Shown in pieces: positions 3,018-38,387 of a stretch of DNA of 46,414 nt. How positions within the stretch are numbered: position 1 is the stretch's first letter; each line of letters opens with the position of its first letter. Under the pieces are notes generated by a model. It made no database searches. It was not told the DNA's origin and was given only the letters and a program-made list of their open reading frames with translations. Location of the stretch: the NCBI GenBank assembly GCA_021815405.1, contig JAKAGV010000023.1, forward strand, positions 1 to 46,414, in the 5' to 3' direction. The stretch comes from Bacteroidota bacterium. Lineage in GTDB: Bacteria; Bacteroidota; Ignavibacteria; Ignavibacteriales; Ignavibacteriaceae. The translations under genes and the position numbers were made by a program.

Positions 3018-4724
3018 TTATTTAAGTAGAAGCATCTTTTTAGTTGAGGTAAAAGAGCCTGCATTCAATCTATAGAAATAAACTCCGCTGCTTATATTGG
3101 ATCCGTTAAAATTCACTTCATGATTACCTGCTTGCAGATTTTGGTTAACAAGGGTTACGATTATTTGACCTAATATATTATACACCGTCAAAGTAACTTT
3201 GCTTGTTTTTAAAATACTAAATCTTATTACGGTAGACGGATTAAACGGGTTCGGATAATTTTGTTCCAATAAAAATTTGAATGGAATGTTTTCATTGTAT
3301 TTTTTAACGTCTGTAATTTGCAGCCATTCTTCTAATTTATTGGGGAACCAATTCAGATCACCCGCAGGAAAACCATCTGTATCGCCGGTATAAGCAGGTG
3401 AGCTTGTCTGATATGCACAATTCATAGTATCTCTATGATAAATTGCGGTTCTCTTATCAAAGGGTTTATAATTATTGCCGGCATTATTTTCACCGGCACC
3501 TTTCGGCGGCGGCGTAAAATACCATTCGGCATAGTCTGCCATTGGCTTTGGTATGTTTACAAATGAAATAGTATCTAATTTTATAAATGCGGAAGAAGTA
3601 TCGGTTAATTGATTGGCTATAAAGTCTGTCATCTGCGGAGCCGGCTTTAAGAGCGGCTCGTACAGCGCTTTCATTTTATTCCATACTGCTTGAATTGGCG
3701 GAGTATAATACCAGTAGTTATTTTTTATATCCCAGTTAGTCGCATAAGCGGAATCTTCTTTCTGACTGTATATCCACGCTTGTTTAACCTTGTCCCGGAT
3801 AGTTGGGCTGAATGTTTCGGCATCCTCAATAAAATCATAATGACGCTGGTATACCGTATCCGAAGCAGCAACCATTGGATCCACAAAGAGATTATTCTTT
3901 ATCTCAACTTTGTCTCCTACTAATCCCAATGCAATTACACCGAATGTGCCGCCGTTATTTATAATTGTATTATGATCGAAAAAGAAATTCCGAATTCTGC
4001 TAGTGCTAGCTATATGGCGGAATATTCTATCCTGACCATTTACAAAAGTATTATTCACCATATACACGTTATCAATAGAAACATCCCTAATATCGACTGC
4101 TCTTCCGTCGGCAACATCCTGCCAGGGTGCGCATCCGCTGTTTGCAAAGATTGTATTTGTTACTCTTATCGATCTGATATGGGCAAATGTTCTAAGATCA
4201 GCCTGGTATGCGCTTAAGAATATGCAGCTATCTACAACCATACTGTAATTCCCTGCTTCGGTGTAAACAACCAATTCTTTAGGAGCTCCGTAAGTAAACT
4301 CTGCATAAGAAGGGTCTAAATCATATATGCCGTTCACTACAATATTTTTTAAATACACATTGCCCCGCGATTTTATAAAATCAATTGGTACGGTATATCC
4401 TCCCGGTGCAGTTATGCCATATATAATAGGCTTTGGACCCGTACCGTCTTCAGCTTCTATTCGAATATCCCAGCCTTCATTTGTAATTACTCCATTAAAG
4501 AACCACACGCCTCCGCGCTGCAAAATATAAACTCTTTCATTATCAATTCTGCTGCCGTTTGATAGTGTGTCTCCCATTATTATCTGGTTTATGTAAGTAG
4601 GATGCTTGGGCGCAGCAAGGTAAATCTCATGCGATTGAGGAAAATCTTTCGCTCCTAAAAATAAAATTAATATTGAAGTTAAGATCAAGTCGAAAGAATT
4701 TTTCATTTGAACTTTTAATTTCAT
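3018..4724 (-). CDS. T9SS-exported right-handed beta-helix protein (paralogue of the 25849-27540 product)
   Basis: 568 residues: a signal peptide (about 8-32), a long region of short beta-strand repeats rich in Asn (for example VYLKNIVVNG, IRVTNTIFANSG, VYMVNNTFVNG, FFFDHNTIINNGG) typical of a parallel beta-helix, then a T9SS sorting domain from about residue 485 (EQNYPNPFNPST). The fold is used by pectate lyases, polysaccharide epimerases and non-catalytic glycan-binding proteins. I cannot point to a catalytic residue set, so the activity is open. It is clearly paralogous to the protein encoded next to the TonB receptor: the start (QRGGVWFFNG versus QRGGTWFWHS), the motif ending KPIIYG, and FPAGDLNWFP near the end are shared. 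It precedes the xylanase by 6 bp, so it is probably a surface partner in plant-wall attack. Two start Mets are possible (residues 1 and 7). Confidence 0.75.
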   Translation of the reverse strand: MKLKVQMKNSFDLILTSILILFLGAKDFPQSHEIYLAAPKHPTYINQIIMGDTLSNGSRIDNERVYILQRGGVWFFNGVITNEGWDIRIEAEDGTGPKPIIYGITAPGGYTVPIDFIKSRGNVYLKNIVVNGIYDLDPSYAEFTYGAPKELVVYTEAGNYSMVVDSCIFLSAYQADLRTFAHIRSIRVTNTIFANSGCAPWQDVADGRAVDIRDVSIDNVYMVNNTFVNGQDRIFRHIASTSRIRNFFFDHNTIINNGGTFGVIALGLVGDKVEIKNNLFVDPMVAASDTVYQRHYDFIEDAETFSPTIRDKVKQAWIYSQKEDSAYATNWDIKNNYWYYTPPIQAVWNKMKALYEPLLKPAPQMTDFIANQLTDTSSAFIKLDTISFVNIPKPMADYAEWYFTPPPKGAGENNAGNNYKPFDKRTAIYHRDTMNCAYQTSSPAYTGDTDGFPAGDLNWFPNKLEEWLQITDVKKYNENIPFKFLLEQNYPNPFNPSTVIRFSILKTSKVTLTVYNILGQIIVTLVNQNLQAGNHEVNFNGSNISSGVYFYRLNAGSFTSTKKMLLLK

Positions 4725-14950: not shown

Positions 14951-14976
14951 TTTGTATCCACCAACATTTATAGTAA

Positions 14977-15876: not shown

Positions 15877-15893
15877 TTTATACCTCACTTATA

Positions 15894-17363: not shown

Positions 17364-17416
17364 TTACTACTCCAATATTCCATTTCTCTGAAATTCTAAT
17401 TCCATATAAATTAAGT

Positions 17417-21182: not shown

Positions 21183-22102
21183 TTCTTACTCACAACTAAC
21201 GATTGGCATTTATGCTTTACAAATAATTTTAACTCTTCAATATATTTTTCCCCCGGAATAACTAAATCGAATAATTCGGGTGAATTCATAAAAAACTCTC
21301 GGTGCACTCTCGTCCAGATGAGCCGTAAATCGGTGGCAATATTTATTTTAGTTACTCCAAGTTGAATAGCATTTAATAATTCATCGTAAGCAATTCCTTT
21401 GGCATCGGATCTAATTTTGCCGCCTGCATTATTTATTCTCTGAATTTCTTCATCCGGAACAGAAGATGCACCGTGGAGAACTAATGGAAACTCCGGTAAG
21501 AAAATTTGAATTCGTTTTAGAATTTCAAAATTCAAACCTGTGCTTCCCTTAAACTTATAAGCCCCATGGCTTGTACCTGCAGCAATTGCCAAACTGTCGC
21601 AGCCGGTTCTCTCGACAAATTCAACTGCTTGATCAGGATCAGTATATTTTGCTTTCCTGGAATCAATATCGATTTCATCTTCCACTCCACTTAATACACC
21701 AAGTTCGGCTTCAACAGAAATACCTTTATCGTGAGCTCGTTTCACTATTTCAGTAGTTATAGTTATGTTATTTTCAAAATTTTCATGCGATGCATCAATC
21801 ATAACAGAATTATAGAAATCTGATTCAATAGCACGTTTGCAATGCTCAGTATTTCCGTGGTCTAAGTGAACCGAAAAATTTACCTCTCCATAAATTTCTT
21901 CTGCGGCAGTAATCATTCCTTTAAGAAATTCCACACCAATATAGTTTCTAGCTACCGGTGTAATCTGAACTATTACTGGGACGTTAGCTTCCGAAGCTCC
22001 TTTGAATACACCATGAATTTGTTCAGCATTAAATATATTGAATGCAGCTATTCCGTATTTTGTGTAAGCTTGGTTTAATATGTCTTGGGTCTTTAATCTC
22101 AA
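21179..22102 (-). CDS. iolJ: 6-phospho-5-dehydro-2-deoxy-D-gluconate aldolase (class II)
   Basis: Cleaves the phosphorylated product of IolC to dihydroxyacetone phosphate and malonate semialdehyde. The class II zinc aldolase has 307 residues. Asp81/His82 lie in FSVHLDHGNTEHCK, Glu residues in VEAELGVLSG, and a phosphate-binding stretch HGASSVPDEEI is followed by GVTKINIATDLR. It closely resembles fructose-1,6-bisphosphate aldolase, and only the location identifies it as IolJ. The start is a TTG at 22102 that overlaps the TGA of the upstream GH92 gene by 4 bp. This is a direct translational link between a mannosidase and the inositol genes. Confidence 0.85.
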   Translation of the reverse strand: MRLKTQDILNQAYTKYGIAAFNIFNAEQIHGVFKGASEANVPVIVQITPVARNYIGVEFLKGMITAAEEIYGEVNFSVHLDHGNTEHCKRAIESDFYNSVMIDASHENFENNITITTEIVKRAHDKGISVEAELGVLSGVEDEIDIDSRKAKYTDPDQAVEFVERTGCDSLAIAAGTSHGAYKFKGSTGLNFEILKRIQIFLPEFPLVLHGASSVPDEEIQRINNAGGKIRSDAKGIAYDELLNAIQLGVTKINIATDLRLIWTRVHREFFMNSPELFDLVIPGEKYIEELKLFVKHKCQSLVVSKK

Positions 22103-24474: not shown

Positions 24475-25491
24475 TTAAGAATTTTGGGATACTGAATTCC
24501 TCTCAATTATTTTATGTTCTAATATTACTTTTTCAACTAGCGGAGATGAAGAATTGTTGATCTGTTTGATCAATAAGTTGGCTGCAGTTTTGCCTATTTC
24601 ATAAGCAGGCATTTGAATTGTTGTTAATGGAATTTTCACATATTTTCCAAAATCAATATTGTCGAATCCCATAACAGATACGCTGTTCGGAACATCTATT
24701 CCTAATTCTGTAAGAGCATTAATTAATCCAATAGCTACAAGATCGTTATAACAAAAAACGGCAGTAGGAAGCTCAATATTTTTTGAAAATAATTCTTTCC
24801 CTGCTTCATACCCGTTTGGGGTATACGGTTCAACAGGGACAATATAATTTTTATCAATTTGAAGACTGTTGTCAATGAGTGCTTGCTTATAGCCTTCCAG
24901 TCTTCTTTGACCATGACCCGAATGAACCGGACCTGCAAAGTGAGCAATTCTTTTATGCCCATGATTAATTAAATATGTCACAGCATCGTACGCCGCCTTT
25001 ATATGGTCAATATCAACAACATTGGTAGAATAATTAGTAATTATTCCAAGAACCACCACCGGGTAATTGTCATTAAGTAAATTGTGAAGATAAGTAAAAT
25101 CGGATTCTTCGCTCTGGAGTGGAGAAATAATTACTCCATCAACTCTCTTGCTTACCAAAGTTTTGATTATCTCAGTCTCTTTTTCAGTAGATAATTCGGA
25201 GCTTCCTAACAACACAGAGTATCCAAGATTCGAGCACTCATCATATACTCCTCGCATTAATTTTGCAAAGTAAGGATTATCAATTTCTTTTATAATAAGA
25301 CCTATACTTTTAGTTTCCCTTATTGCTAAAGATTGGGCAATCTGACTTGGATTATAATTATATTTTTCAATTATTGCCAGCACTTTTGAACGGGTCTTTT
25401 CCGAAACACCGGATTTGTTGTTAAGAACAATAGACACAGCAGATTTGGAAACATTAGCAAGTTTAGCAATATCTGAAATTGTCATTCTCAT
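24475..25491 (-). CDS. LacI-family transcriptional repressor
   Basis: DNA-binding regulator of 338 residues. The N-terminal helix-turn-helix (MTISDIAKLANVSKSAVSIVLN, in part, residues 3-22) and hinge helix (NPSQIAQSLA, about 52-61) are standard. A periplasmic-binding-protein-like sensor domain (about 62-330) follows, containing VDGVIISPL, IAHFAGPVHSGHGQRRLEGY and SVMGFDNIDFGKY. A near-perfect LacI-type palindrome lies 60 bp before its start, and related sites precede the TonB receptor and the GH51 operon. Autoregulation and control of the whole cluster are therefore likely. The effector is unknown; a monosaccharide or inositol derivative is plausible. Confidence 0.92.
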   Translation of the reverse strand: MRMTISDIAKLANVSKSAVSIVLNNKSGVSEKTRSKVLAIIEKYNYNPSQIAQSLAIRETKSIGLIIKEIDNPYFAKLMRGVYDECSNLGYSVLLGSSELSTEKETEIIKTLVSKRVDGVIISPLQSEESDFTYLHNLLNDNYPVVVLGIITNYSTNVVDIDHIKAAYDAVTYLINHGHKRIAHFAGPVHSGHGQRRLEGYKQALIDNSLQIDKNYIVPVEPYTPNGYEAGKELFSKNIELPTAVFCYNDLVAIGLINALTELGIDVPNSVSVMGFDNIDFGKYVKIPLTTIQMPAYEIGKTAANLLIKQINNSSSPLVEKVILEHKIIERNSVSQNS

Positions 25492-25550
25492 ATTATAACC
25501 AGATTATTTGTAAGTAACTTTTTCATTTTAACATTTATACAACAAAATTA

Positions 25551-25564
25551 CTAAACCGATTTAG
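25551..25564. promoter_or_regulatory. LacI-type operator upstream of the lacI gene
   Basis: CTAAACCGATTTAG, extended to an 18-bp near-palindrome at 25549-25566 (TACTAAACC / GATTTAGTA, one mismatch) centred on CG, the usual centre of LacI-family operators. It lies 60 bp before the regulator's start codon. Confidence 0.75.
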
Positions 25565-25791
25565 TAAATCCAATTTTACGATGTAATTTATTGATATTCT
25601 CATTTATATGGTACTATAATTCTTTATTTACTAAACAATTAAACTCAGAAAATCCTTATATGAATTTATAACTTCAATATATTTAACTCTATTTATCAAC
25701 ATAATTTTCAATACTTTTTCAATATTGCAATTGTTTAATTACTTGTCCATTTTTTTTATTATCTCATTGATTTATTATCTCAAAAATAAAA

Positions 25792-25838
25792 CCTGCTTTC
25801 GCTGAATTACACAAGCGTCTGTAAATCGCGAAAGCAGG
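25792..25838 (-). terminator. Rho-independent terminator of the TonB receptor/beta-helix operon
   Basis: Perfect 11-bp arms CCTGCTTTCGC (25792-25802) and GCGAAAGCAGG (25828-25838) flank a 25-nt loop, starting 10 bp after the beta-helix stop. On the minus strand the hairpin is followed by a T-rich stretch (TTTTATTTTTGAG), as expected for termination. Confidence 0.75.
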
Positions 25839-25848
25839 CAGAAAGGAG

Positions 25849-27540
25849 CTATTTGAGTAAAATCATTTTCTTAGTAGAAACAAAATTACCAGCTCTCAAT
25901 GTATAGAAATATATACCGCTTGATAAATTATCAGCATTAAAATTAAATTCATAACTTCCTGCTGCTTGTTCTCTATTGACAAGCGTAGATACTTCTTGAC
26001 CTAAAATGTTATAGATTTTTAAAGTTACGAGTGCAGGTACTGTTATACTATATCTAATGGCAGTAGATGGATTAAATGGATTTGGATAATTCTGTTCCAA
26101 AGTATATTTAGATGGAATATTAGAATTTATAGTCTTAACATCGGTTAACTGTTCCCATGCAGCTTTTTTATCTGGATACCAGTTTAAATCACCAGCAGGA
26201 AATCCACCGTTAGCGCCTGTATAAGCTGGTGAAGACGTTGAATAAGTACAATTCATTGTATCTGCATAGTATAGAGTTAAACGCTTGTCATAAGGTGTAT
26301 ATGTACCGCCGCTTGAATTGCTGCCTGTACCACCCAGTGAAGCAGGTTCAGTAGCCCAGAGAACTGGTGCTGTCATGGGAGCTGGGACATTTGTAAATGA
26401 AAAATTATTTAGCTTAAAAAATGCCTGCGTTGTATCAACCTTGGCTTTGATACTATCAGTCAGAATTCTTCCCATACCAATGTTAGGCATCCAACCTTCA
26501 TTAGCAATTGTATTCCAAACAGCTTGGATTTGAGGTGTTATATAATAGTAGTTATCAGAGATATTCCAGTTGGTAGCAGACTGACCAGGGAGCGTGTCTG
26601 ATGCGGCTGGTGAATTATAAATCCATGCCATTTTAACATATCCGTTTGCGTCAAATTCATTCATTTCTTGAAAATCCCAGTGACGCTGAGAAGCAGTATC
26701 AGCTCCAAATGCCATAGGATCGACCAATAGGTTGTTAGTTATCTGGACTTGTGCACCCACTGCACCTAGTGCTATTAAACCATACCTGCCTCCATTTTCA
26801 TAGACAGTATTATGGTCAAAGATAAAATGATTCAATCTGCCTACGCTGGCGATATGCCTTACAACCCGGTCATAACCATACATATAAGTATTATTAATAA
26901 AAACAAGACTATCAATTGATACATTTCTACAATCAACTGCACGTCCGTTACCGACATCCACTAAAGGCGGCAGACCCATATTTGCAAAAATGTTATCCCG
27001 GAAAATTATAGTTGGTACTGCCGCAAAAGCACTGGCAACTGCTTGTCCGACATTCGAGAACACATTTCCGTCAAATTCCATCCTTGGTCCAGGTGTTGCG
27101 CATCTAAACAAAATGAACGGACCGCCATAAGTATTGAATGCTGAAGTATCGAGGTCAAAATAACCACTTATAATAAGATTCTTAATTGTAACATCGCCCT
27201 GAACATCAACCCAATCATATGGTGCTGCTGTAGTACCAGTTGCTTCTGTACCATAGATGATTGGTTTTCCGCCGCTGCCGGTATCGGCTGCTTCAATATC
27301 TAGTTTCCACCCGGCATTAACAATTGTGCTATGCCAGAACCAAGTACCGCCTCGCTGAAGTTCGTATACTCTCAGCGTATCTTTACGCGCTCCGCTTGCC
27401 GTAGTATCTGCATTAATGATGTCATCAAGATAGGTGACGCCAGTTGGTTTTGTTAGAAACATAATATGCTGCCCGAATGTTAGAGTCAAGGACGACAATA
27501 ACAAAAAGATAGGTAACATAATACGTAATGCTGCTTTCAT
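25849..27540 (-). CDS. T9SS-exported right-handed beta-helix protein next to the TonB receptor
   Basis: 563 residues with a signal peptide (about 4-23). A beta-helix region has strand repeats such as VTIKNLIISGYFDLD, IIFRDNIFANMG, LVFINNTYMYG and FIFDHNTVYENGG. The T9SS sorting domain starts near residue 480 (EQNYPNPFNPST). By eye it shares its whole length with the 3018-4724 product, so the two arose by duplication. It is 64 bp after the TonB receptor gene, preceded by a strong GGAGG site, and followed by a terminator, so the two genes form a two-gene operon. In that position Bacteroidetes loci usually encode SusD. This protein is not SusD-like but may play the same surface glycan-capturing role. 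A lyase or esterase function remains possible. Confidence 0.75.
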   Translation of the reverse strand: MKAALRIMLPIFLLLSSLTLTFGQHIMFLTKPTGVTYLDDIINADTTASGARKDTLRVYELQRGGTWFWHSTIVNAGWKLDIEAADTGSGGKPIIYGTEATGTTAAPYDWVDVQGDVTIKNLIISGYFDLDTSAFNTYGGPFILFRCATPGPRMEFDGNVFSNVGQAVASAFAAVPTIIFRDNIFANMGLPPLVDVGNGRAVDCRNVSIDSLVFINNTYMYGYDRVVRHIASVGRLNHFIFDHNTVYENGGRYGLIALGAVGAQVQITNNLLVDPMAFGADTASQRHWDFQEMNEFDANGYVKMAWIYNSPAASDTLPGQSATNWNISDNYYYITPQIQAVWNTIANEGWMPNIGMGRILTDSIKAKVDTTQAFFKLNNFSFTNVPAPMTAPVLWATEPASLGGTGSNSSGGTYTPYDKRLTLYYADTMNCTYSTSSPAYTGANGGFPAGDLNWYPDKKAAWEQLTDVKTINSNIPSKYTLEQNYPNPFNPSTAIRYSITVPALVTLKIYNILGQEVSTLVNREQAAGSYEFNFNADNLSSGIYFYTLRAGNFVSTKKMILLK

Positions 27541-27604
27541 ATAATCCTCCAGATTATTTATTTTTAGTTATTTAGTTAGTGTTGCCGCTATATAATTTTG
27601 CATT

Positions 27605-30595
27605 CTAAATTTTAACCCTTAACCAAAGATCAGCGCTTGTTCCATATCTTACACTAGAAGTTTGAAGCGTCCAACCTGTAATAGCATTCTGCATGCTTGT
27701 TCCTTCACTGTAATTATTTAAATTATTTATATTCAGACCTACGTCAAGATGATCATTTATTACTTGCTTTAATGCTAAATCTAATCTTGAATATGCGTCC
27801 TGCATTGGATTAGAACGCTGATCGGTAGAAAATCCATTATAGTAACTGCCCTGGTAAAAGTACGAAAGCCTTGCAGAGAAGCCGGCAATATCATAACCTA
27901 CCATAACATTGCAAAAAAACTCCGGCGAGTTAACTATCCTGCTCTTCGCTTCTTCAAGGAGTACCTTCGGTTTGGCTATTGGGAAACCTCCTATATAAGT
28001 TGTATCATAAACAATTTTAGCAAAAGGCGTATAGGTCTGGTCCTTGACAAGAGACAAATTGTAGCCTAAGGTAAGCCCCTTCAAGAATCCTGGAAGAAAC
28101 AAAAAATTTGTCTGTTGTTCAAGTTCAAAACCCCAAACATAGGTTGGCTTTGTGGAATTGTATGGATAATACAAACCGTAAGTTGTACTAAATGGGCGTT
28201 TGTTTCCTTTAAATTGTATTCCAAGACTGTCGGCAAGATTACTGTTTGGAAATATCGGGAATCCGTTTAGAAATTGAACCTGGTTATCTATTTTCTTGAA
28301 GTATGAAGATAAGGAAATTAGTCCGATCTGGTTTCCATAAAATTGCACGTTGACTTCATAGTTCCAAGCGCTTCCGTTCTTAAGATCTGCATTACCAATT
28401 TTTACCATAGGTGCACCAACGTATGGAGCTACACCGATAAGTAAATATGTAGGCAATCTATAATTAAAATCTGGTCGCGTAATACCTCTATAAGCAGCGA
28501 GACGAACATTCATGAAACTTGTTGGGCGAAGTATCATTTGAACGTTAGGCAGAACTATAGATTCATTATGCTTAGCCGTAGTATCATTGAAGACAGAATA
28601 GATTGATAGCGGCTGAGTAGTATAGTATGATGCATATCTATCGTTATCTGCTTCAAGGCGAACACCTGTTATCAACGTAGCAAAGGTTCCGAAATTCAGA
28701 GTATTCATTAAGTAAGCCGCACTCACACTTTCCAATGCATTGTATCCGGTTCCATCTTCTGCAGTACCATCGGCATACTCAGGCGACATGTTTGTGGAAT
28801 CGATACCATTAATGCTAAGGTTATACCAATTCCTAATGCGACTTGCATCTATAATTGGATTTAACGAATACAAACCGTACAAATTACGAGTTGAGTTGTC
28901 GATAAAGTTAGTCATAAGTATCAAACCCCCAACTTTTTGAAGATTTCCGAAACCGTACGCAGCCCATGGCTTAGGTACAATCTGACCATTTGATAATTGT
29001 ATAGAGTTCATCGCCTGCGTACCATTATAATATGGAGCGAAATCATATTTGCTTGATCTCCGGTGGTAATGATCATTATACTTGCCCCCAAACTTCAGTT
29101 CTCCGCTTAAATCAGAGAAAGTATAATCTCTCTTTATATCAACACTCACTGTTCGTTGAAAGTCAAGATTGTTACTTGTTCTAACATTTCCATAGGTCAG
29201 GTAAGCGTAACTGAAATTGTCGACAGCGTAAGGAATAATCGCTTGATAGGGACCATGCCTCAATGAAACTGGAACCGGTTTCATTCCTGAAAGTACATTG
29301 CCATTAGAATCAAGCGTTGAAGGCTCCTCGAATGTAAGGTTATAGTTGTATGGTTCATCAGTGGTTGATTGAGTAAATGATAGGTTCCAATTAATTTGCC
29401 AGGTATTAATATTATTATTGCCTTGAAGCGAAAGAGAAAGAATATTTGTGTTAATATCCTGCCCTGTAAAATTATAATCCGGAGTAGCCCACTCTACAGG
29501 ATAGTCTCGTGCAATCATCGATAGACGCCGTTCGGTTCGATCAACATCCCCATCAAATTTTATAACACCGCCATCGGGAGTAGCATAGTCAAGAAGCAGC
29601 CGTGCGCCTCTTCTTTTTCGTGTTTCCGGAGTATATTGAATAGCAAAATCGCTGATCGACCATTGAGTATTATTGAGCAACGTTTGGTCGTATGTAACAT
29701 TATAATTTTCACTGCCACGGTCACGCTGCTCGATATTTCCAAAAAGCTGTACACCTAAAAGATTATTGAAGAACCGTTCTCCATAGTTTCCATAAAAATT
29801 GTATTGATTGTATGTGTTGTCTAAGGCTCCATAAGAACCTTGAGCTGTAACCTGAATTGTTCTTACTGCCGGAGCCGTTTTTGTTACAAAATTTACGCTG
29901 CCTGCAATAGCCTGACCATCCATGTCTGACGTAATAGCTTTAGTAACAGTGATTCCTGAAAGCGATCCTTGTGCTATTGTACTTAAGTCTACTCCTCTCG
30001 AATCCGCATCTGTTGGAGATAATTTTGTCCCATCTAATGTAATTGATGTGTAGCTTTCGCCTAAGCCGCGCATTATTATTTGATTTGCTTCTCCGCCAGA
30101 ACGTATTATAGATATACCCGGCAAACGTCCAAGAGCTTCTGCGGCATTTGCATCAGGCAATTCACGTATTTTTTGTTCAGAAACTACATTTACAATTTTA
30201 TCTGAAGAAACTTGTTGATTGATAGCTGCAGCCTGTCCTGTTGCTTGTGCACTGACTACAATTTCTTTCCCTTGCAGTGCATTATTCCTTAATTTGAAAT
30301 TCAGAACGATTGTCTGGTTGTTGGAAACCGTGATTTTTCTTTCTAAGGAGTTGTATCCTATATACGAACATTTTATTGTATATTGCCCCGCCGGAACAGC
30401 TTCAATCATATATTTACCTTCGAGGTCTGTAGCAGCACCTAAAGAAGTTCCAACAATAATTACATTTGCACCAATCAGCGATTCATTTGTTGACGAATCT
30501 CTTACTACTCCTCTAATTATTCCTGAAGCAAAGAGCACTGATGGCAACAAAAGAAAAGATATTATCAATATATTTATGGTAAGTAAATGCTTCAC
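27605..30595 (-). CDS. TonB-dependent outer-membrane receptor with carboxypeptidase-regulatory-like N-terminus
   Basis: Energised outer-membrane transporter of 996 residues. Order: signal peptide (about 5-23); carboxypeptidase-regulatory-like beta-sandwich (about 24-110, GIIRGVVRDSS, SLIGANVIIVGTSLGAATDLEGKY in part); plug domain (about 135-245, with IRELPDANAAEALGRLPGIS and MRGLGESYTSITLDG); and a beta-barrel to the end, finishing WLRVKI. The start is GTG at 30595 with AAGG upstream. It has the size of SusC-type importers, but no SusD gene is adjacent; a T9SS beta-helix gene follows instead. Two LacI-type operators lie 60 and 138 bp before the start. Substrate is unknown, probably an oligosaccharide released by the enzymes of this locus. 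Confidence 0.92.
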   Translation of the reverse strand: MKHLLTINILIISFLLLPSVLFASGIIRGVVRDSSTNESLIGANVIIVGTSLGAATDLEGKYMIEAVPAGQYTIKCSYIGYNSLERKITVSNNQTIVLNFKLRNNALQGKEIVVSAQATGQAAAINQQVSSDKIVNVVSEQKIRELPDANAAEALGRLPGISIIRSGGEANQIIMRGLGESYTSITLDGTKLSPTDADSRGVDLSTIAQGSLSGITVTKAITSDMDGQAIAGSVNFVTKTAPAVRTIQVTAQGSYGALDNTYNQYNFYGNYGERFFNNLLGVQLFGNIEQRDRGSENYNVTYDQTLLNNTQWSISDFAIQYTPETRKRRGARLLLDYATPDGGVIKFDGDVDRTERRLSMIARDYPVEWATPDYNFTGQDINTNILSLSLQGNNNINTWQINWNLSFTQSTTDEPYNYNLTFEEPSTLDSNGNVLSGMKPVPVSLRHGPYQAIIPYAVDNFSYAYLTYGNVRTSNNLDFQRTVSVDIKRDYTFSDLSGELKFGGKYNDHYHRRSSKYDFAPYYNGTQAMNSIQLSNGQIVPKPWAAYGFGNLQKVGGLILMTNFIDNSTRNLYGLYSLNPIIDASRIRNWYNLSINGIDSTNMSPEYADGTAEDGTGYNALESVSAAYLMNTLNFGTFATLITGVRLEADNDRYASYYTTQPLSIYSVFNDTTAKHNESIVLPNVQMILRPTSFMNVRLAAYRGITRPDFNYRLPTYLLIGVAPYVGAPMVKIGNADLKNGSAWNYEVNVQFYGNQIGLISLSSYFKKIDNQVQFLNGFPIFPNSNLADSLGIQFKGNKRPFSTTYGLYYPYNSTKPTYVWGFELEQQTNFLFLPGFLKGLTLGYNLSLVKDQTYTPFAKIVYDTTYIGGFPIAKPKVLLEEAKSRIVNSPEFFCNVMVGYDIAGFSARLSYFYQGSYYNGFSTDQRSNPMQDAYSRLDLALKQVINDHLDVGLNINNLNNYSEGTSMQNAITGWTLQTSSVRYGTSADLWLRVKI

Positions 30596-30654: not shown

Positions 30655-30668
30655 CTAAACCGTTCTAA
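30655..30668. promoter_or_regulatory. LacI-type operator 1 of the TonB receptor gene
   Basis: CTAAACCGTTCTAA, sharing the CTAAAYCG left half and central CG with the site before the lacI gene. The right half is imperfect. It lies 60 bp before the GTG start, the same distance as the lacI operator from its gene. Confidence 0.6.
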
Positions 30669-30732
30669 TTTCAATTTAAATTGTTATAAACTTCTATAAT
30701 TACGCATATTATAAATATCTGACATTAATTAA

Positions 30733-30746
30733 CTAAACCGCTCCAG
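30733..30746. promoter_or_regulatory. LacI-type operator 2 of the TonB receptor gene
   Basis: CTAAACCGCTCCAG, with flanking AA and TT extending the dyad (AACT...AGTT). It lies 78 bp from operator 1, a spacing matched by the pair in front of the GH51 operon. Confidence 0.6.
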
Positions 30747-31011
30747 TTATTTACAAAAAATATTTTTTAAAGTCAAGATATTTTCTGGGTTTGTAAGTTT
30801 TATTTCTAGATGATGTGAGAATTGTACATCCCTACTGACAAGGAAAGATCCTAGAAAGGGAAATTAACTTTAGTTAAGTTATTGTTTCATAGTAAAAATT
30901 TTAAGTAATATCGCGAATGATTGAATAATTTTAAAACTTCTTTTTCGGATATGAGCTGTTCATGTGACACAGAAATATATGTTATTTGAATTGATATATC
31001 TGAATTTGTCA

Positions 31012-31857
31012 TTAGGCATTCTTCGCATTTAAATATAAAGCCGCTGCACCCAGTATTGCAATATTTTCTTTTTCAGAAACTGTAATTTTTATTTTTTCAG
31101 CAGATTTTGAGTAAGTAAAACGTTTTATTGATTTCCACATTTGTTCTTTAAAATATAGGAATGATTTACTTACTGATCCGCCAAGTACAATAACTTCCGG
31201 ATCCAACGCATACATAATCATCTTAATGGCATTACCAAGGTTTTCACCATAATTCCTATATATTTCTAAAGCTGAAGAATCTTTATCAGCAGCTTTCTTA
31301 GCAAGTTCTTTCCCTGATATGCCAATCTCATTCAAAAAATATTGCCCGCTGCAATAATACTCATAGTTCTTATCTTTATAAGCTATCTCACCAAATTCAC
31401 CAGCACCACAATTAGCGCCTTCATAAAGCTTATTATTAATAATTACACCTGCACCAAGTCCGGTACCTATTATTAATCCAACTATATTTTTATAATCTTT
31501 TACATTACCGAAATATTTTTCTCCTACAGCAAAGCAGTTAGCATCATTGTTAATATATGTGGGAATTTTAAAGTTCGACTCTAATATTTCTTTTAAATGA
31601 ACTTTTTTCCATGACGGAATATTTTGTACCTGATATACTATGCCTTTTTCAACATCAACAATGCTTGGCACTCCGACACCAATACCTTCAACTTTTTCAT
31701 AATCAAATTTTCTTATTAAGCTAAACAAATCATCAAAAACTTCATTTTCGCTGCTATCTTTTCTAACCAGCATTGATTCAACTTTTGTCAATTCATTTCC
31801 TTCTACTAAGCCAACCCTTATATTAGTTCCACCGATGTCAATTCCAAGAAGTTTCAT
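31012..31857 (-). CDS. ROK-family sugar kinase
   Basis: Cytoplasmic ATP-dependent hexose kinase of 281 residues. It has the phosphate-binding motif DIGGTNIRVG (6-15), the catalytic Asp105 in YINNDANCFAVGE, the ROK stretch IIGTGLGAGVIINNKLY, and GAGEFGEIAY. The zinc-binding CxCGxxGCxE motif that follows in most ROK kinases is missing: the region reads YEYYCSGQYF, with a single cysteine. There is no N-terminal helix-turn-helix, so it is a kinase and not a ROK repressor. It is 36 bp after the FucP-type transporter gene and is the last gene of the GH51 operon, so it probably phosphorylates the sugar brought in by that carrier (glucose, mannose or similar). Confidence 0.87.
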   Translation of the reverse strand: MKLLGIDIGGTNIRVGLVEGNELTKVESMLVRKDSSENEVFDDLFSLIRKFDYEKVEGIGVGVPSIVDVEKGIVYQVQNIPSWKKVHLKEILESNFKIPTYINNDANCFAVGEKYFGNVKDYKNIVGLIIGTGLGAGVIINNKLYEGANCGAGEFGEIAYKDKNYEYYCSGQYFLNEIGISGKELAKKAADKDSSALEIYRNYGENLGNAIKMIMYALDPEVIVLGGSVSKSFLYFKEQMWKSIKRFTYSKSAEKIKITVSEKENIAILGAAALYLNAKNA

Positions 31858-31893
31858 ATTCCAAATTGTAAATTGTTATTGTCAATAATTATT

Positions 31894-33150
31894 TTAATTA
31901 GTCGCTGCTACTGCCTTTGTCTTGATAGTCTGATTAGCTATAATCGGATTAGCCCATATTCCAATACTTAAAATATAAGCAAGCGTGACAAAAACGAAAG
32001 ACATACCAGTTCGGAGTCCCAAATTATCACCAAGCCAACCAATGAATAACTGAATTATTGCTCCTCCAATAATTGCAGTTACTAAAATTCCCGTAAAAGA
32101 GCCGTGATGACTTTCAACTGAATTTAATGCAAGCGAAAAAATTATTGGCCACATAACAGATAGCGAGAATCCAACCATAGGAAAAGTAATAAGCGCAAAT
32201 CTACTCGGACCAAATAATGACATGCTTAAAAAGATTGTAGCTAATATTACTGCACCGAGTAATACTCTTCTGCTATCAAAAAGCTTTAGCAAACCCAATC
32301 CGATTAAAGATCCGATAGACATCATCCCCCAAAACCAACCGACAATTGAAGCTCCAATGGTTACTGGATCATAATTATGATATGTATAAAGAAATTTTGA
32401 AATCCAGTATGATACACCTTGTTCTGTTCCCACATAAGCAAAAATACCGATGAAATAAAGAATAACTATTTTATTTTTAAACAAACTTTTGTGCGTTGCC
32501 CAACTGCCGGATTTTTCATCTTCATTTCTTTCGACATCTGGAAACCTTGACAAAAGAATCACGATGATCATAAATAACAAAACAACTGTAAACAAAATAT
32601 AAAGTGATACCCATGAAAGATTATTAGGTACTAAACCGCCGAAAATTGTTTTGACAATATTATTTGAATTTGTTTCATTAAGACCGGATATCAGATACGT
32701 TAAAAACATTGGTGCTAAGAATGAAGCTCCTCCAAAAACTAATTGCGCCATTACCGAGTTGAATGCAAAATGTTCTTCTCCTCCTGAAACTCTTAAGAGT
32801 GGATTAATGGCAACCTGCAACATTGCCATTCCGGTCCCCATCAAAAATAGAGAAATAAGAAAAACCAAGTAATGCGGGAAAATAGAAAACGTCAATGCGC
32901 CAATAAACGCCATTGAAAAGGCAGCAATCATGATTTTCTTTTCTTTATATTTTTCAACCAGGATGCCAGCAGGAATGGACATAACTCCGTATGCAATAAA
33001 AAAGGCAAATGGAAGAAACGCCGAAAGCGTTAAGCTTAGATTGAAGCTTTTAATTACATCCGGGTTGAGTGCACCAAGAATGTTTGTTATAAGCGAAATA
33101 ACAAAAAATGTAAGAAAGATTAATCCTACTATGAAATAATTCCTTTTCAC
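31894..33150 (-). CDS. Sugar permease of the major facilitator superfamily (FucP-like)
   Basis: Inner-membrane proton-coupled sugar carrier of 418 residues with about 12 hydrophobic segments. It shows the FucP/GluP group features: the N-terminal ALNPDVIKSFNLSL, the loop ILVEKYKEKK after helix 2, and MLQVAINPLLRVSGGEEHFAFN (in part) in helix 4 and the following loop. The start is GTG at 33150 with AGGTG upstream. It lies between the GH63-like enzyme (110 bp upstream) and the ROK kinase (36 bp downstream). The arrangement enzyme, carrier, kinase suggests uptake and phosphorylation of the hexose released by the GH63-like enzyme. Fucose itself is unlikely, since no fucose pathway is present. Confidence 0.88.
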   Translation of the reverse strand: MKRNYFIVGLIFLTFFVISLITNILGALNPDVIKSFNLSLTLSAFLPFAFFIAYGVMSIPAGILVEKYKEKKIMIAAFSMAFIGALTFSIFPHYLVFLISLFLMGTGMAMLQVAINPLLRVSGGEEHFAFNSVMAQLVFGGASFLAPMFLTYLISGLNETNSNNIVKTIFGGLVPNNLSWVSLYILFTVVLLFMIIVILLSRFPDVERNEDEKSGSWATHKSLFKNKIVILYFIGIFAYVGTEQGVSYWISKFLYTYHNYDPVTIGASIVGWFWGMMSIGSLIGLGLLKLFDSRRVLLGAVILATIFLSMSLFGPSRFALITFPMVGFSLSVMWPIIFSLALNSVESHHGSFTGILVTAIIGGAIIQLFIGWLGDNLGLRTGMSFVFVTLAYILSIGIWANPIIANQTIKTKAVAATN

Positions 33151-33260
33151 TTTTCACCTAGGTTTATTAATATTTACTTTATAGATTATTTTCAAATAAC
33201 CGGAATTAAATTTTTAATATCTTTAGAGCAGTTCATATTCTACCGCTTATTCTAGTGCTC

Positions 33261-36077
33261 TTACTTTTTATAAATTTCCAATTTTCCGCTTTTGGTTTTA
33301 TCTATCGGGATATCTATACTTAATGTTCCTTGAGCTAACGACTTATAAGCAATACTTTTCCCATCCCACTTAACTTCATATTGATAATTCGGGTTCATAC
33401 AAGCAACTACTGAAGCTACTTTATTTTTGTCATCGTAAGCGGTTAAATCAGCCGAGAACTTACTGAAATTATCTTCAAACTTTTTATTATCCATCCAAAT
33501 ATCAAATCCGGTTGTAAAATTTCCGGGACGGTAGTAAGCGGAGAACCACATTACAACAGGCGAAGATAAGCTGCTGAATATATGCCATCCCGCTCCTCTC
33601 CTTGTTTCATTTAAAAAGTGCTCCATACAATTGTAAGAGGTTTCAACTTCATTCTTCCAGATATCTAATCCTCTTTTCGCAATTTTATATGCAAAATCAG
33701 ATTGCCCTAAATCCAGCATTGTCTTCCAGAAAAACCATTGATGTGCCATCCATACAGTACCATTCCAGTAACCGTCGGTTCTATAATACGGTGCTGATTG
33801 ATCTACTGCTGTAAGCCCCGCATTAGACCAAAGATGTTTATCGGATTCAAGAGAGGCAAGAATTTTTTCTTCCTGATCTTTATTGCAAATTCCTGCAACT
33901 AACGGATAAGCTCCATCAAATGTCATATCATAATTTACTTTGTCATCATATTTCAGAATATGCAAAGGTTGCCCTTCTTGATTATGAACAACATAACCAA
34001 AGTAACCTGATTTCTCATCCCAGGAATATTTTTGAAGTGCATTTGAAAAAACATTTATGTCCTTGTCATAAGAGTTGATATCATTCTTGATGCCTAAATA
34101 ATTCGCAGCCATCTTTAATATCTTTGCTATTCTGATAACCTGCGAAGTAGCAATAACTGGCGCTACCGTGGATTCTAGCTGATTATTATGCACATAAAGC
34201 TGCGGAGGAAGATCATCCCAGCCGCCGGAATTATAGAAGTAATCCCATGTTTTTAGAATATTCGATTTGAGCGAATTCATCGTCGAACTTCCTAGCTTGC
34301 CAGCCATAAATTCATAATATTGCTTAAGACGCGGATAAAAATATTCCAGCATTGGCTTTGATTGTGTATGGTTCCATAGCGACAAATATAAATAGTGCTG
34401 TGTCGGCACAGGCGAGCCATGAAGAATAAATGCAGATTGAGCACCAGGATTTTGAACGTATTCATTTAAACTTTCAATTGCGTTCCAGGTATTTGACTGC
34501 AGCAGTCCCATCCCTATAAAACCTGCATCCCAAGTATAAAGACAATCCCACCATCTTCCCGGTACATACAGACGAATATATTGTTTCTGGGTATAAACGG
34601 GATATACCACATTACAATCCATCGTTGCATTCATACGTTCGATGCTGAATTTATATTTTTCACCAGCCGGATTGCAATCCATATTTACAACATGCTTTTT
34701 AGCAGCCAGGTAATAATCTTCATATTTATCTTGAGAATTATTCATCTCTTTTAAATACTTTTCAACTTCTTCCTTAGTGCCGGAACAAACAACGCCATAA
34801 ATAGTTTTAGTTGATTTAGGCTTCATAACAATTGGTCTTAAGAATACATCTGTATAGTGTCCTTTACCTTCGCCATGGAATATCGTCTGCACATGTTCAT
34901 TAACCTCTTGTTTAAAATAATCTGAAAGATCTCGGCAGAACCATTGTCTAATTTTAAATAGATCGAATTTCCACAAAAGTCCATAATAAACATTCACATC
35001 ATCATACTTAAGAATAATTGAGTTTTTAATAGGTCCATTTATAATTTTCGGAACCGGATTCCATTCTTTCAGTTTGAATTGAATTTTATTTGCAGAATCA
35101 GATTCAACCAAAGCAAAACCATCCAATTGAATTCCACTTCCACCATCTGAAATCAATTTTAATTCATGTATACCTTTGTCTAGCTTGCCAATTCTTAGTG
35201 TATCTAAAGCAAAATCATTTGTCCCGTTGAAAGTAATTTGCTTATCAATCATACCCGAAAAATTGAATGAGACTGTTTGACTTGAATCCATTTTATATCT
35301 GACAAGAAACAGAGCATCATTAAAATTTTCCTTTACATTAATTTTATAAGAAACAAAATCACCTTTGTCTTGTCCAAAACCCAATCCGATTCCGGAACCA
35401 TTAACAAAGCCGTTATCTCTAATTTCACCACGCATAAAGCCATCGTAGACACAGTTATCGGTTGGTCTTGTTTTGGCAAATTTCAGATGTTCATAATTAA
35501 GTGCATCAAACCATTGAGCACCTTCAGGCAACGTTACGATGGCAGGATGAATCGGAATATAATAAGTATATTCTGTAACATTGGGAAAATTCATGAATGC
35601 CATAAAGTGCAGTGCAAGATTCTCGTACTCATTAGTTTTATTAACACACTCTATTCTAATCAAGCGTGACATCGGTGTTATTTTAGAATATGAGATATCG
35701 GTATAAACCTGATCTTTCCATTCCAGCTCATGGCGGAAGCTGAAATAATCCAGATCCGGAGATGCGTCCCAAGGATGATAATCACCTTCATAAAGTACAT
35801 CAGGTACTTCAACTTTTCTCCTATAAAATCCCGGGAAAACACTCAGGTCAAACCTAAGTCCACTTTTTACGTCCGGTATATTGGAAATGCCATTATAACG
35901 TTCTGTATAAGGTCCCCATGCAGGCAGGTCAAGATCATGCGTACCTTCCAGCGTTTTAAGTGTATCCATGGTAATAACAGCTTGAGCATAATCATTTTGC
36001 CATGGCAATATAAAATTTGAAATTGCAAATAATGTGAAGATTAGCTTTGCTAAAGAAATCCTGGGGACTGTTCTCAT
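33261..36077 (-). CDS. GH63-like six-hairpin glycosidase with inserted carbohydrate-binding-like domain, exported
   Basis: About 938 residues from the ATG at 36077, chosen because GGAG lies 8 nt before it; the ATG 11 codons earlier has no such site. Signal peptide, then an N-terminal beta-sandwich (about 50-225 of the longer numbering). Next is an inserted beta-rich segment (about 245-335: FNDALFLVRYKMD, GIHELKLISDGGSGIQLDGF) resembling a CBM6/35-type jelly roll, and then an (alpha/alpha)6 catalytic toroid (about 465-890). Toroid landmarks are GRWWDCLYTWDAGF (Asp528) and GGWDDLPPQ (Asp632/633), as in GH63 and related clan GH-G enzymes (alpha-glucosidases, mannosylglycerate hydrolases), and NGTVWMAHQWFFWK. 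It is 35 bp beyond the GH51 stop at 36146, in the same operon. Substrate cannot be read from sequence. Confidence 0.75.
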   Translation of the reverse strand: MRTVPRISLAKLIFTLFAISNFILPWQNDYAQAVITMDTLKTLEGTHDLDLPAWGPYTERYNGISNIPDVKSGLRFDLSVFPGFYRRKVEVPDVLYEGDYHPWDASPDLDYFSFRHELEWKDQVYTDISYSKITPMSRLIRIECVNKTNEYENLALHFMAFMNFPNVTEYTYYIPIHPAIVTLPEGAQWFDALNYEHLKFAKTRPTDNCVYDGFMRGEIRDNGFVNGSGIGLGFGQDKGDFVSYKINVKENFNDALFLVRYKMDSSQTVSFNFSGMIDKQITFNGTNDFALDTLRIGKLDKGIHELKLISDGGSGIQLDGFALVESDSANKIQFKLKEWNPVPKIINGPIKNSIILKYDDVNVYYGLLWKFDLFKIRQWFCRDLSDYFKQEVNEHVQTIFHGEGKGHYTDVFLRPIVMKPKSTKTIYGVVCSGTKEEVEKYLKEMNNSQDKYEDYYLAAKKHVVNMDCNPAGEKYKFSIERMNATMDCNVVYPVYTQKQYIRLYVPGRWWDCLYTWDAGFIGMGLLQSNTWNAIESLNEYVQNPGAQSAFILHGSPVPTQHYLYLSLWNHTQSKPMLEYFYPRLKQYYEFMAGKLGSSTMNSLKSNILKTWDYFYNSGGWDDLPPQLYVHNNQLESTVAPVIATSQVIRIAKILKMAANYLGIKNDINSYDKDINVFSNALQKYSWDEKSGYFGYVVHNQEGQPLHILKYDDKVNYDMTFDGAYPLVAGICNKDQEEKILASLESDKHLWSNAGLTAVDQSAPYYRTDGYWNGTVWMAHQWFFWKTMLDLGQSDFAYKIAKRGLDIWKNEVETSYNCMEHFLNETRRGAGWHIFSSLSSPVVMWFSAYYRPGNFTTGFDIWMDNKKFEDNFSKFSADLTAYDDKNKVASVVACMNPNYQYEVKWDGKSIAYKSLAQGTLSIDIPIDKTKSGKLEIYKK

Positions 36078-36145
36078 TACTTTCTCCAAATAATAACTGT
36101 TAAAAATCATTTTTAATTTTAAATGAACATAAATCCAAGCACATT

Positions 36146-38146
36146 TTATTTCTCTCTAAATAATATATTGGCAGGAATAATTTGCTTGCTCATATCAGGA
36201 CCTTTGATACTTACACTTAATCCCATCCCTCCGCCTGATTGGAAATACCATAATTCGATTTTATGATAGCCTGCTTTCAATTCTGCCATTCCGGATTTTT
36301 CTATTGGTGCATGTCTTCCATCGTTGTTTACAATAATTTTCCTATCAATAAAAATTACAGAACCATCATCCGATGTTGTATAAAAAGTGTATAGACCATC
36401 AATAGGTATTTTTATGTAACCATCATACTTCAATGCGAAATTTTCTTCACGAACACCTTTAGGTATTATAAAATTATTCACCAATCCGGATGATTTTGGC
36501 TTTAAAAAATTAAAATCCGGCATCATTCCGTTCTCGATTTCATAATAGTTATAATCTATTCTCTGATTTGGATTATTTAATTTTATCTCAGGCATAGGCT
36601 TCATCTCTAATTTGCCAAACAGCTCAAGGACAATGACAGACATTGGCGGCATAGAAACACTTAAATTACCGTTACTAAAGTTGAAGCCTGAGAATCCGGC
36701 AGGTTTAACCACATCAGGATCTTTAAAAGTATTATGTGCATTCATTTTATCAGCAGTCAATATCTTTCCGGAAATTTTATTTACCTTAAAACTATCCAAA
36801 CTTATATTAACAATTTCAGGTTTATTGGGATTAATATTACACAGGGAAATATGCATCTTGCCAGTGCTATCAATTGAAGCCGAACAATTCACTGTCGGCA
36901 GAGACTCTCCTTTATAAACATATTCGCTTGACGATACTTTTACCGGTATCATCATAGCATCTTGATGAACTTTATATAAATCAAACACCCAATATGTCGG
37001 AGTTAAAATCATTTTATCTCCCTTTGTAAGAATCATTGCCTGTAATACATTTACAACTTGCGCAATGTTTGCCATTCTAACTCTATCACAATGGTTATTT
37101 AATATATTTAAATTACATGCTGCTGCAATTGCATCTCTCATAGTATTCTGTTGATATAAAAAGTTAGGATTCGTTCCAGGCTCTACTTTGTACCAAGTTC
37201 CCCATTCGTCCACAACTAAAGCCACTCTTTTTAGAGGATCATATTTATCCATTATTGTAGAGTGTTTGTTAATAAGATCTTCCATCTTCAAAGTCTTTTT
37301 CATAATATCAAACCATCCACTCTCATCAAAGTCTGTCGCTGTTCTTTGATTTGCCCAGGCGTAATAATGCAGCGACAATCCGTCTATATAATCGGCATCT
37401 TCTTTCATTAATACTTTTGTCCAATTATAATCATCAGCGTTAGGACCACTGGCTATTTTAAACAACTTATTCTTACCGTAATTTCGCATGAATGTACCAT
37501 ATCTCCTGACCTGCTCAGCATAATATTCGGCAGTCATGTTTCCGCCGCATCCCCAGCTTTCATTTCCAACGCCCCAATATTTTACACCCCATGAATGATC
37601 TCTTCCATATTTCTTTCGCAGTTCCGTCATCGGACTTAAGTTATCCGAATTAACATATTCAACCCACTGCGAAAGTTCCTGAACTGTACCGCTTCCTACA
37701 TTGCCGGTAATATAAGGCTGGCATCCAACTAACTTGCAAAACTCAAGAAACTCACTGGTTCCGAAATGGTTGTTCTCAGTAACATCGCCCCAGTTAGAGT
37801 TTATCATCTTCGCTCGTTTTACGCGTGGACCGATTCCATCCATCCAGTGATATTCATCCGCAAAACAGCCGCCGGGCCACCGAAGCACCGGAACCTTTAT
37901 TTCTCTTAAAGCATCAATTACATCCTTCCTCATACCGTCGATGTTTGGAATTGGAGAATGAACACCAACCCAGATACCGCCATATATGCAATGACCGAGA
38001 TGCTCGGAAAACTGTCCATAAATAATTTTGTTAATTTTATATTCGTCTAAAGAAGCATCGAGCGTTATATTGTTACCAACTTTCTGCGCTCTAATTAAAG
38101 ATGGGGAAATAAATACAAATAAAAAAAGAAAATAAATTTTCTTCAT
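36146..38146 (-). CDS. GH51 alpha-L-arabinofuranosidase with C-terminal PA14 domain, exported
   Basis: Removes terminal alpha-L-arabinofuranose from arabinan or arabinoxylan. I start it at the ATG at 38146 (AGGA 8 nt upstream, followed directly by a signal peptide [12 protein letters not shown]), not at the Met 23 codons earlier. In the longer numbering the GH51 barrel has [15 protein letters not shown], the acid/base Glu219 in WGVGNESWG and the nucleophile Glu337 in [10 protein letters not shown] beta-sandwich follows. Residues about 570-689 form a PA14-type module ([20 protein letters not shown], in part; [24 protein letters not shown]), thought to bind glycans. It is the first gene of a four-gene operon, preceded by two LacI-type operators. 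No T9SS tail. Confidence 0.92.
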
Positions 38147-38242
38147 ACTGAATTCCTGATAATTCTTGAAGGCAAGTAAATTTTTTAGTTTGTTAAAAAT
38201 AATTACGAATTCCATGAATATGTAGTTATTTTATAATTTTAA

Positions 38243-38256: not shown

Positions 38257-38318
38257 TTATTAGACTATCAAATAACTATTTAATTTTCCAATGTTTATAT
38301 AATTATTAATATATAACA

Positions 38319-38332
38319 CTAAATCGGTTTAG
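38319..38332. promoter_or_regulatory. LacI-type operator 2 of the GH51 operon
   Basis: CTAAATCGGTTTAG, a near-perfect dyad (CTAAATC / GGTTTAG, one mismatch) and almost the inverted form of the lacI-gene operator. It is 76 bp from operator 1. Confidence 0.7.
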
Positions 38333-38387
38333 CTATTTAATGTTTTTTAATTTAAAAATCAAGTACCTGAGAGGAATAAATCATTAT

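Follow-up and report, generated by a model that had tools for sequence, protein, structure and literature searches.

What does a TonB-dependent receptor gain from a partner tagged for delivery by the type IX secretion system (T9SS), at a position where a Bacteroidota locus would have SusC followed by SusD? This question is raised by two adjacent genes of an Ignavibacteriaceae genome. The window, by which we mean the whole stretch of DNA analysed (46,414 nucleotides, contig JAKAGV010000023.1 of assembly GCA_021815405.1), had received a sequence-only reading in which a surface beta-helix hands glycan to the receptor in place of a SusD lid.

The gene pair and its receptor

Both genes lie on the minus strand, and the 64 bases between them contain a GGAGG ribosome-site-like stretch (identified by eye). 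The unit comprises the following features:

27605..30595, minus strand: TonB-dependent receptor, best score with TIGR01782 (996 aa, GTG start)
30254..30517, minus strand: receptor N-terminal extension, CarboxypepD_reg-like domain (PF13715), residues 27-114
29900..30205, minus strand: receptor plug domain, residues 131-232
27719..29389, minus strand: TonB-dependent barrel match, residues 403-959
25849..27540, minus strand: T9SS-sorted, putative beta-helix-type partner (563 aa, signal peptide without lipobox cysteine)
26149..27468, minus strand: helix-family domain of the partner (A1 family), predicted distant relative of DUF5123, residues 25-464
26173..26193, minus strand: conserved G-D-L-N-W-x-P motif, residues 450-456
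25861..26088, minus strand: type IX secretion C-terminal sorting domain, residues 485-560 of 563
25782..25839, minus strand: intrinsic terminator of the pair, from folding energy against shuffles

The terminator stands directly 3' of the partner stop codon and is formed by an outer stem of 12 pairs with a U-run behind it. Its folding energy of -28.2 kcal/mol (z -5.6) was equalled by none of 200 shuffles, and a simple hairpin scan did not return it because that scan was limited to loops of at most 8. Coordinates, intergenic gap and hairpin all agree with the description of the locus as a two-gene unit closed by a terminator. A promoter scan at the pair returned 28 sites against a shuffled mean of 26.5, which is no excess over shuffled sequence.

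Next, we classified the receptor. It matched the Pfam families CarbopepD_reg_2 (E 2.5e-25), Plug (E 1.3e-13) and the TonB-dependent barrel (E 2.5e-19), and its solved relatives, retrieved by sequence search, align mainly with the N-terminal extension and the plug. The best NCBIfam model was TIGR01782, a receptor model named after Xanthomonas and Caulobacter, with 305.6 bits against a cut-off of 310, a value that 5 of the 8 sister receptors of the same genome exceed. The SusC model TIGR04056 gave 61.8 bits against a cut-off of 368.25, and it was listed for 6 of 9 further paired receptors with at most 86.5 bits. The idea of a SusC without its SusD was therefore abandoned, since the receptor falls outside the SusC family and its paired sisters behave alike. 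The regulatory-like domain that the sequence-only reading had assigned to the receptor is indeed present as PF13715, but a specialised role for it was rejected because this domain is a common N-terminal extension, found also in the SusD-adjacent receptor of a comparison locus (L186).

The partner protein and its kinship to DUF5123

The partner begins with a signal peptide (assigned by eye) and ends with a type A T9SS tail, TIGR04183, which scored 48.0 bits against a cut-off of 23. Such a tail closes 65 of the 66 helix frames whose 3' end is present. A loose lipobox-like pattern, the one applied to DUF5123 proteins, was found in whole frames of 5 of 76 distinct partners, each of which also carries the usual AQ signal end, and a narrower pattern run on trimmed sequences gave 0 of 80; the window partner showed no lipobox-like pattern. 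Its closest named relatives come from metagenome-assembled genomes named Bacteroidetes bacterium (86%) and Candidatus Kryptoniota (70%). A scan of genome contigs gave three loci, one of them through the tail alone.

Aligned with nine relatives from the same genome (the A1 alignment), the window partner falls into a single family in which certain Asn, Thr and His positions are invariant or nearly so, a pattern that resembles the ladders of beta-helices, and which has a closing GDLNW motif. Across 72 aligned partners the G-D-L-N-W-x-P motif keeps its G in 71, its D in 67 and its W in 69. The predicted beta-helix fold rests on family members and not on a Pfam match of the window protein: PF13229 (Beta_helix) matched 4 of 10 members with E-values from 1.6e-4 to 1.7e-3, all under the cut-off, and the long member L132 passes it. 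With the tail omitted and E-values up to 10 admitted, the window partner itself had no Pfam beta-helix match and no match to a SusD Pfam family, its sole match being DUF5123 (E 0.0021, below the cut-off). Two AlphaFold2 single-chain models (pLDDT 45.6 and 26.4), built from four and two sequences, were too poor to confirm the fold. Of the earlier description of a T9SS-sorted beta-helix, the sorting tail is thus firm, while the helix finds support in family members and none in the window protein's own Pfam results.

Profile comparison places the helix family at a distance from DUF5123, to which it is apparently related: the helix profile aligned with DUF5123 proteins at 97.7% probability (E 1.8e-12) over 214 columns, as compared with 0.3% for a GH28 control made of two sequences. 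The window partner alone scored 19.6 bits with PF17161 (DUF5123), under the cut-off of 35.1. A lipobox is present in 7 of 8 DUF5123 proteins, and the eighth (L179/L192) has a T9SS tail. Seven of the lipoproteins were aligned and the gene surroundings of six (L186-L191) were examined; there, the order is a receptor-sized gene, SusD and DUF5123. Receptor and SusD were confirmed by Pfam in L186, the single locus scanned, while in L187-L191 gene size and order point to the receptor, and L190 additionally matches the receptor profile. The protein encoded at L192:6205-7554 carries the T9SS tail and no lipobox, and no SusD match was found within 12 kb around its gene; this tail suggests that surface anchor types have been exchanged within the DUF5123 family. 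As for function, excerpts of the literature describe BT4112 as a homogalacturonan surface-binding protein, a pectin SGBP (PMC8002723), and BT4109-14 includes a DUF5123 protein according to a table (excerpt of PMC10434189); judging by this table, BT4112 is probably that DUF5123 protein.

We also scanned partners for additional domains. Twelve long partners were found and ten of them scanned, together with another set of ten, eight of which were scanned without tails. Domains of carbohydrate-binding type exceeded their cut-offs in 5 of these 20 partners, ten of which had been chosen for their extra length: an F5/8 type C domain in one partner of the own genome (E 2.4e-22) and CBM35, over its 28-bit cut-off, in 4 of the 10 long partners (L128, L139, L142 and L147). 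In four more long partners CBM35 remained below the cut-off (L130, L132, L141 and L149).

Conservation of the pair, distribution of SusD and a possible regulon

In the own genome, all nine receptors of the subfamily, defined as those scoring above 1000 bits with the receptor profile, adjoin a T9SS-tailed helix gene, eight with the helix gene downstream and one with it upstream. In the same genome 23 other, distinct receptors were examined (one that lies in the overlapping loci L051 and L052 was counted once), which have a T9SS-tailed gene directly downstream in no case and directly upstream in three (Fisher p 8.6e-7 for a downstream T9SS-tailed neighbour). A chance neighbourhood was rejected on these counts; the three upstream neighbours mean, in turn, that standing beside a T9SS gene is not unique to the subfamily. 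Ten strong helix genes were found in the genome, only one of which, the paralogue at 3018-4724 in the window, has no adjacent receptor, and an eleventh helix match is weak (27.7 bits). A second recurring cassette was observed in L046, L047 and L048 (C26, C19 and C6 of the own genome), where a T9SS-tailed protein of about 850 aa is followed by a receptor of about 900 aa and by a third gene for a protein of 1047, 1103 or 1044 aa.

The pairing extends to related bacteria. A receptor survey of the own and 20 further genomes at E 1e-60 or better gave 78 rows, two of which were joined, and 60 of the resulting 77 receptor matches in 21 genomes are adjacent to a helix gene (58 downstream, 2 upstream). 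Sixteen of the remaining 17 lie at contig ends (12 by rule, all starting at most 223 bases from the end, and four more that end there), which leaves one real exception, L196, a receptor without a helix gene and with a different T9SS gene upstream. Starting from the partner, the helix loci sampled across the own genome, relatives, class and phylum numbered 70 (the one or two top matches of each genome), and 68 of them have an adjacent receptor. Two of these loci, L139 and L141, have overlapping open frames and were paired on inspection; L084 and L099 are the two without a receptor, and the orphan helix genes L200 and L202 have no receptor in reach. At E 1e-15 the helix family was detected in 41 of 296 genomes of a phylum sample and in 27 of 119 genomes of a class sample, with at least 13 matches in some class genomes; copy numbers are lower bounds, since up to 13 candidates per genome were scored in the class sample and up to 5 in the phylum sample. 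A lack of conservation, which could have undone the sequence-only reading, is contradicted by both surveys.

Receptors and partners also diverge together. Identity distances of the two proteins correlated with r = 0.90 over 72 pairs, a value inflated by species relatedness, and 0 of 5000 permutations reached it, none rising above 0.17. The nine pairs of the own genome, which are free of species relatedness, gave r = 0.90 as well (0 of 5000 permutations). The larger set kept 72 of 80 pairs after removal of duplicates (L071, L088, L193 and L194) and short sequences (L072, L087, L100 and L152). Joint duplication and divergence of the two genes would be expected to produce such a correlation.

A SusD for this receptor was also sought elsewhere in the genome. 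The genome, 99.98% complete, gave no match to PF07980, PF14322 or PF12771, each of which returned matches in a Bacteroides control; these three families define the search, PF12741 being outside it. A SusD homologue elsewhere, which would have counted against the earlier reading, was thus not found among the families searched. At the level of the class the picture is different: PF07980 matched in 32 of 119 genomes (30 over the cut-off), and pair and SusD occur together in 10 of the 119, no more rarely than by chance (odds ratio 1.9, p 0.22). The pair hence does not exclude SusD, and a strict replacement of SusD at the genome level was rejected; the orphan paralogues argue against it too. Excerpts of published work report that SusCD genes were hardly found in Ignavibacteriales gene clusters and were absent from those of Ca. 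Kapabacteria (PMC10576277), and that Melioribacter roseus has a SusC-SusD-SusE operon (PMC3534657), so that at least one relative does have SusD.

Just downstream of the pair lies a LacI-family gene, and the surrounding window offers several elements that bear on regulation and on the orphan paralogue:

24475..25491, minus strand: LacI-family regulator (domain match), probable regulator of the pair
25550..25565, no strand assigned: operator-like palindrome upstream of the LacI gene, the site that set the consensus
30732..30747, no strand assigned: operator-like palindrome upstream of the receptor gene, with a further CGGTTTAG half-site at 30655-30662
38318..38333, no strand assigned: operator-like palindrome upstream of the arabinofuranosidase-like gene, a consensus match
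31012..38215, minus strand: possibly co-regulated genes (ROK kinase, MFS transporter, MGH1/trehalase-like glycoside hydrolase, arabinofuranosidase-like protein with PA14)
3018..4724, minus strand: orphan partner paralogue, 49% identical, with T9SS tail and no adjacent receptor

Allowing up to 3 mismatches, the palindrome upstream of the LacI gene recurs at only two other sites of the window, before the receptor and the arabinofuranosidase-like genes; the consensus was set by eye on the 25550 site, and only the other sites are independent. L102 shows similar palindromes upstream of both the receptor and the LacI gene, L197 upstream of the receptor and L101 upstream of the LacI gene. These sites suggest a regulon that may unite the pair with the ROK kinase, the MFS transporter and the glycoside hydrolases.

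Further genes of the window were recorded as observations in their own right. The orphan paralogue lies 6 bases from a T9SS-tailed GH10 gene and near genes of GH88, GH28 and alpha-galactosidase type. Between two GH92 genes, the region 13931-22102 encodes MocA, a xylose-isomerase-like TIM barrel, an aldehyde dehydrogenase, a TPP enzyme, PfkB, KduI/IolB and a class II aldolase, a set which we take to resemble a full myo-inositol catabolic pathway. A 592-aa protein with a signal-like start (6086-7864) matched neither Pfam nor NCBIfam at the thresholds applied, and 41503-45795 encodes a hybrid two-component regulator with Reg_prop, Y_Y_Y, kinase, receiver and AraC-type domains.

The role of the partner at the receptor

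Taken from the genes as they stand, the reading that we hold to be probable, with appreciable doubt, is that the partner is a dedicated surface glycan-capture protein of a SusD-independent receptor and that the pair forms a glycan-uptake module. Control of the operon would lie with a LacI-type repressor that acts through the operator-like sites and that a sugar signal probably releases. The signal peptide would take the partner across the inner membrane, and the type IX system, acting on the C-terminal tail, would bring it to the surface, as its domains imply. There, the putative beta-helix would bind polysaccharide and hold it at its own receptor, helped in some members by the added carbohydrate-binding domain, and the receptor, to judge from its TonB-dependent family and its best score with TIGR01782, would import fragments released by surface enzymes. 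Under this scheme the partner would correspond, as T9SS cargo, to the DUF5123 lipoproteins encoded after SusC-SusD in other Bacteroidota. A stable contact between partner and receptor is likely in light of the strict pairing and the co-divergence, while surface display, glycan binding and hand-over to the receptor are what we infer. The orphan helix genes, the co-occurrence with SusD, the T9SS neighbours of three other receptors, the small size of the GH28 control and a profile match to a glycoside hydrolase in the PDB (below) were counted against this reading.

Other roles were weighed against it. The helix protein could be a true lid that caps the mouth of the receptor, with movements like those of SusD or BtuG as they open and close, an option we rate as unlikely although it comes second in our order. 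Near-obligate one-to-one pairing, co-divergence within a single genome and the lack of a match to the three SusD families searched all fit a lid, and a lid other than SusD is known for vitamin B12, where BtuG sits on BtuB (excerpt of PMC10404256). The orphan paralogue in the same window, however, has no adjacent receptor, those DUF5123 lipoproteins that were examined stand beside SusD, and pair and SusD occur together in class genomes; moreover, unlike the lipoproteins SusD and BtuG, the window partner is T9SS cargo that lacks the lipobox cysteine. The broader proposal that a T9SS-delivered beta-helix caps or loads a TIGR01782-type receptor, as a widespread third lid type beside SusD and BtuG, is a tentative one that we regard as possible yet doubtful.

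Beta-helix proteins of such glycan loci are often enzymes, and GH28 is present in the window, so the partner might instead be a glycoside hydrolase or lyase of an uncharacterised kind, cutting polymer beside the receptor. Two partner residues, D210 (69 of 72) and H243 (71 of 72), are near-invariant, and the sole match of the helix profile in the PDB at E up to 10 is the glycoside hydrolase BT_1002, a weak hit (E 0.039) that keeps this alternative alive. Against it, no GH, PL or other catalytic Pfam family was found in the 20 partners scanned, a result with which a new enzyme family would be compatible, and NCBIfam matched 4 helix-family proteins with T9SS models only, through the tail. Positions conserved in at least 70% of partners are, by eye, mostly Asn, Gly, Thr, Pro or hydrophobic and not charged, the window partner has Ala and Thr in columns 186 and 323, where arginine is common (56 and 60 of 72), and the profile kinship is to DUF5123 and not to GH28. 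An enzyme is thus distinctly unlikely in our estimate and ranks third, after the dedicated glycan-binding partner and the lid. More improbable still is a receptor that acts by itself, on the model of the Xanthomonas and Caulobacter CUT loci, with the helix gene as a co-regulated accessory that makes no contact. The best receptor score with TIGR01782 speaks for such independence, as does the Xanthomonas CUT study, which in its excerpted text found no SusD-like protein (PMC1790865), but pairing through many duplications, together with co-divergence, exceeds ordinary co-regulation, and the same excerpt gives the CUT receptors no very significant similarity to characterised Bacteroidetes receptors.

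Returning to the dedicated glycan-binding partner, comparison with known systems shows both likeness and difference. SusC-SusD importers, polysaccharide utilisation loci and utilisomes share with the window a receptor with PF13715, an adjacent surface-protein gene, and glycoside hydrolases and a sugar regulator nearby, and in utilisomes SGBPs are in stable contact with SusC (excerpt of PMC7618045); here, in contrast, the receptor fails the SusC model (61.8 bits against a cut-off of 368), the genome is without a SusD-family match, and the partner is T9SS cargo lacking a lipobox. The DUF4957/DUF5123 surface lipoproteins, the third gene after SusC-SusD, resemble the partners through the distant similarity over 214 columns and through the closing motif, GDPRW there and GDLNW in the partners (with P for L in 8 of 72). 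The window partner differs from them in its sub-threshold DUF5123 score (19.6 against 35.1 bits), in directly following a non-SusC receptor and in its T9SS tail in place of a lipobox. CUT loci, known in Xanthomonas for receptors without SusD, are alike in the receptor model that scores best here (TIGR01782), the lack of SusD and a neighbouring regulator, inner-membrane transporter and degrading enzymes, but a fixed T9SS helix partner such as that found here is not mentioned for them in the excerpt of PMC1790865. BtuB-BtuG likewise joins a Bacteroidota receptor to a non-SusD surface partner (a predicted surface location here; excerpt of PMC10404256), yet BtuG is a lipoprotein lid for B12, whereas the window pair is known from genes alone and its partner has DUF5123 as its only Pfam match (E up to 10, tail omitted). 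Among the open-licence matches listed, the excerpts held no description of the pair, which is not proof of absence, and the excerpt of PMC10576277 names no other outer-membrane receptor system for Ignavibacteriales or Ca. Kapabacteria.

The pair is a real conserved module, to be regarded as a variant of the known receptor-plus-surface-protein theme until a complex is seen. It looks like a little-described way to catch complex sugars without the usual SusD, spread through Bacteroidota and represented by nine pairs in this genome. For bacteria as poor in SusCD as these, a conserved receptor with its T9SS partner is a concrete candidate for polysaccharide capture, and, if this is true, the pair would tie the import of nutrients directly to type IX secretion.
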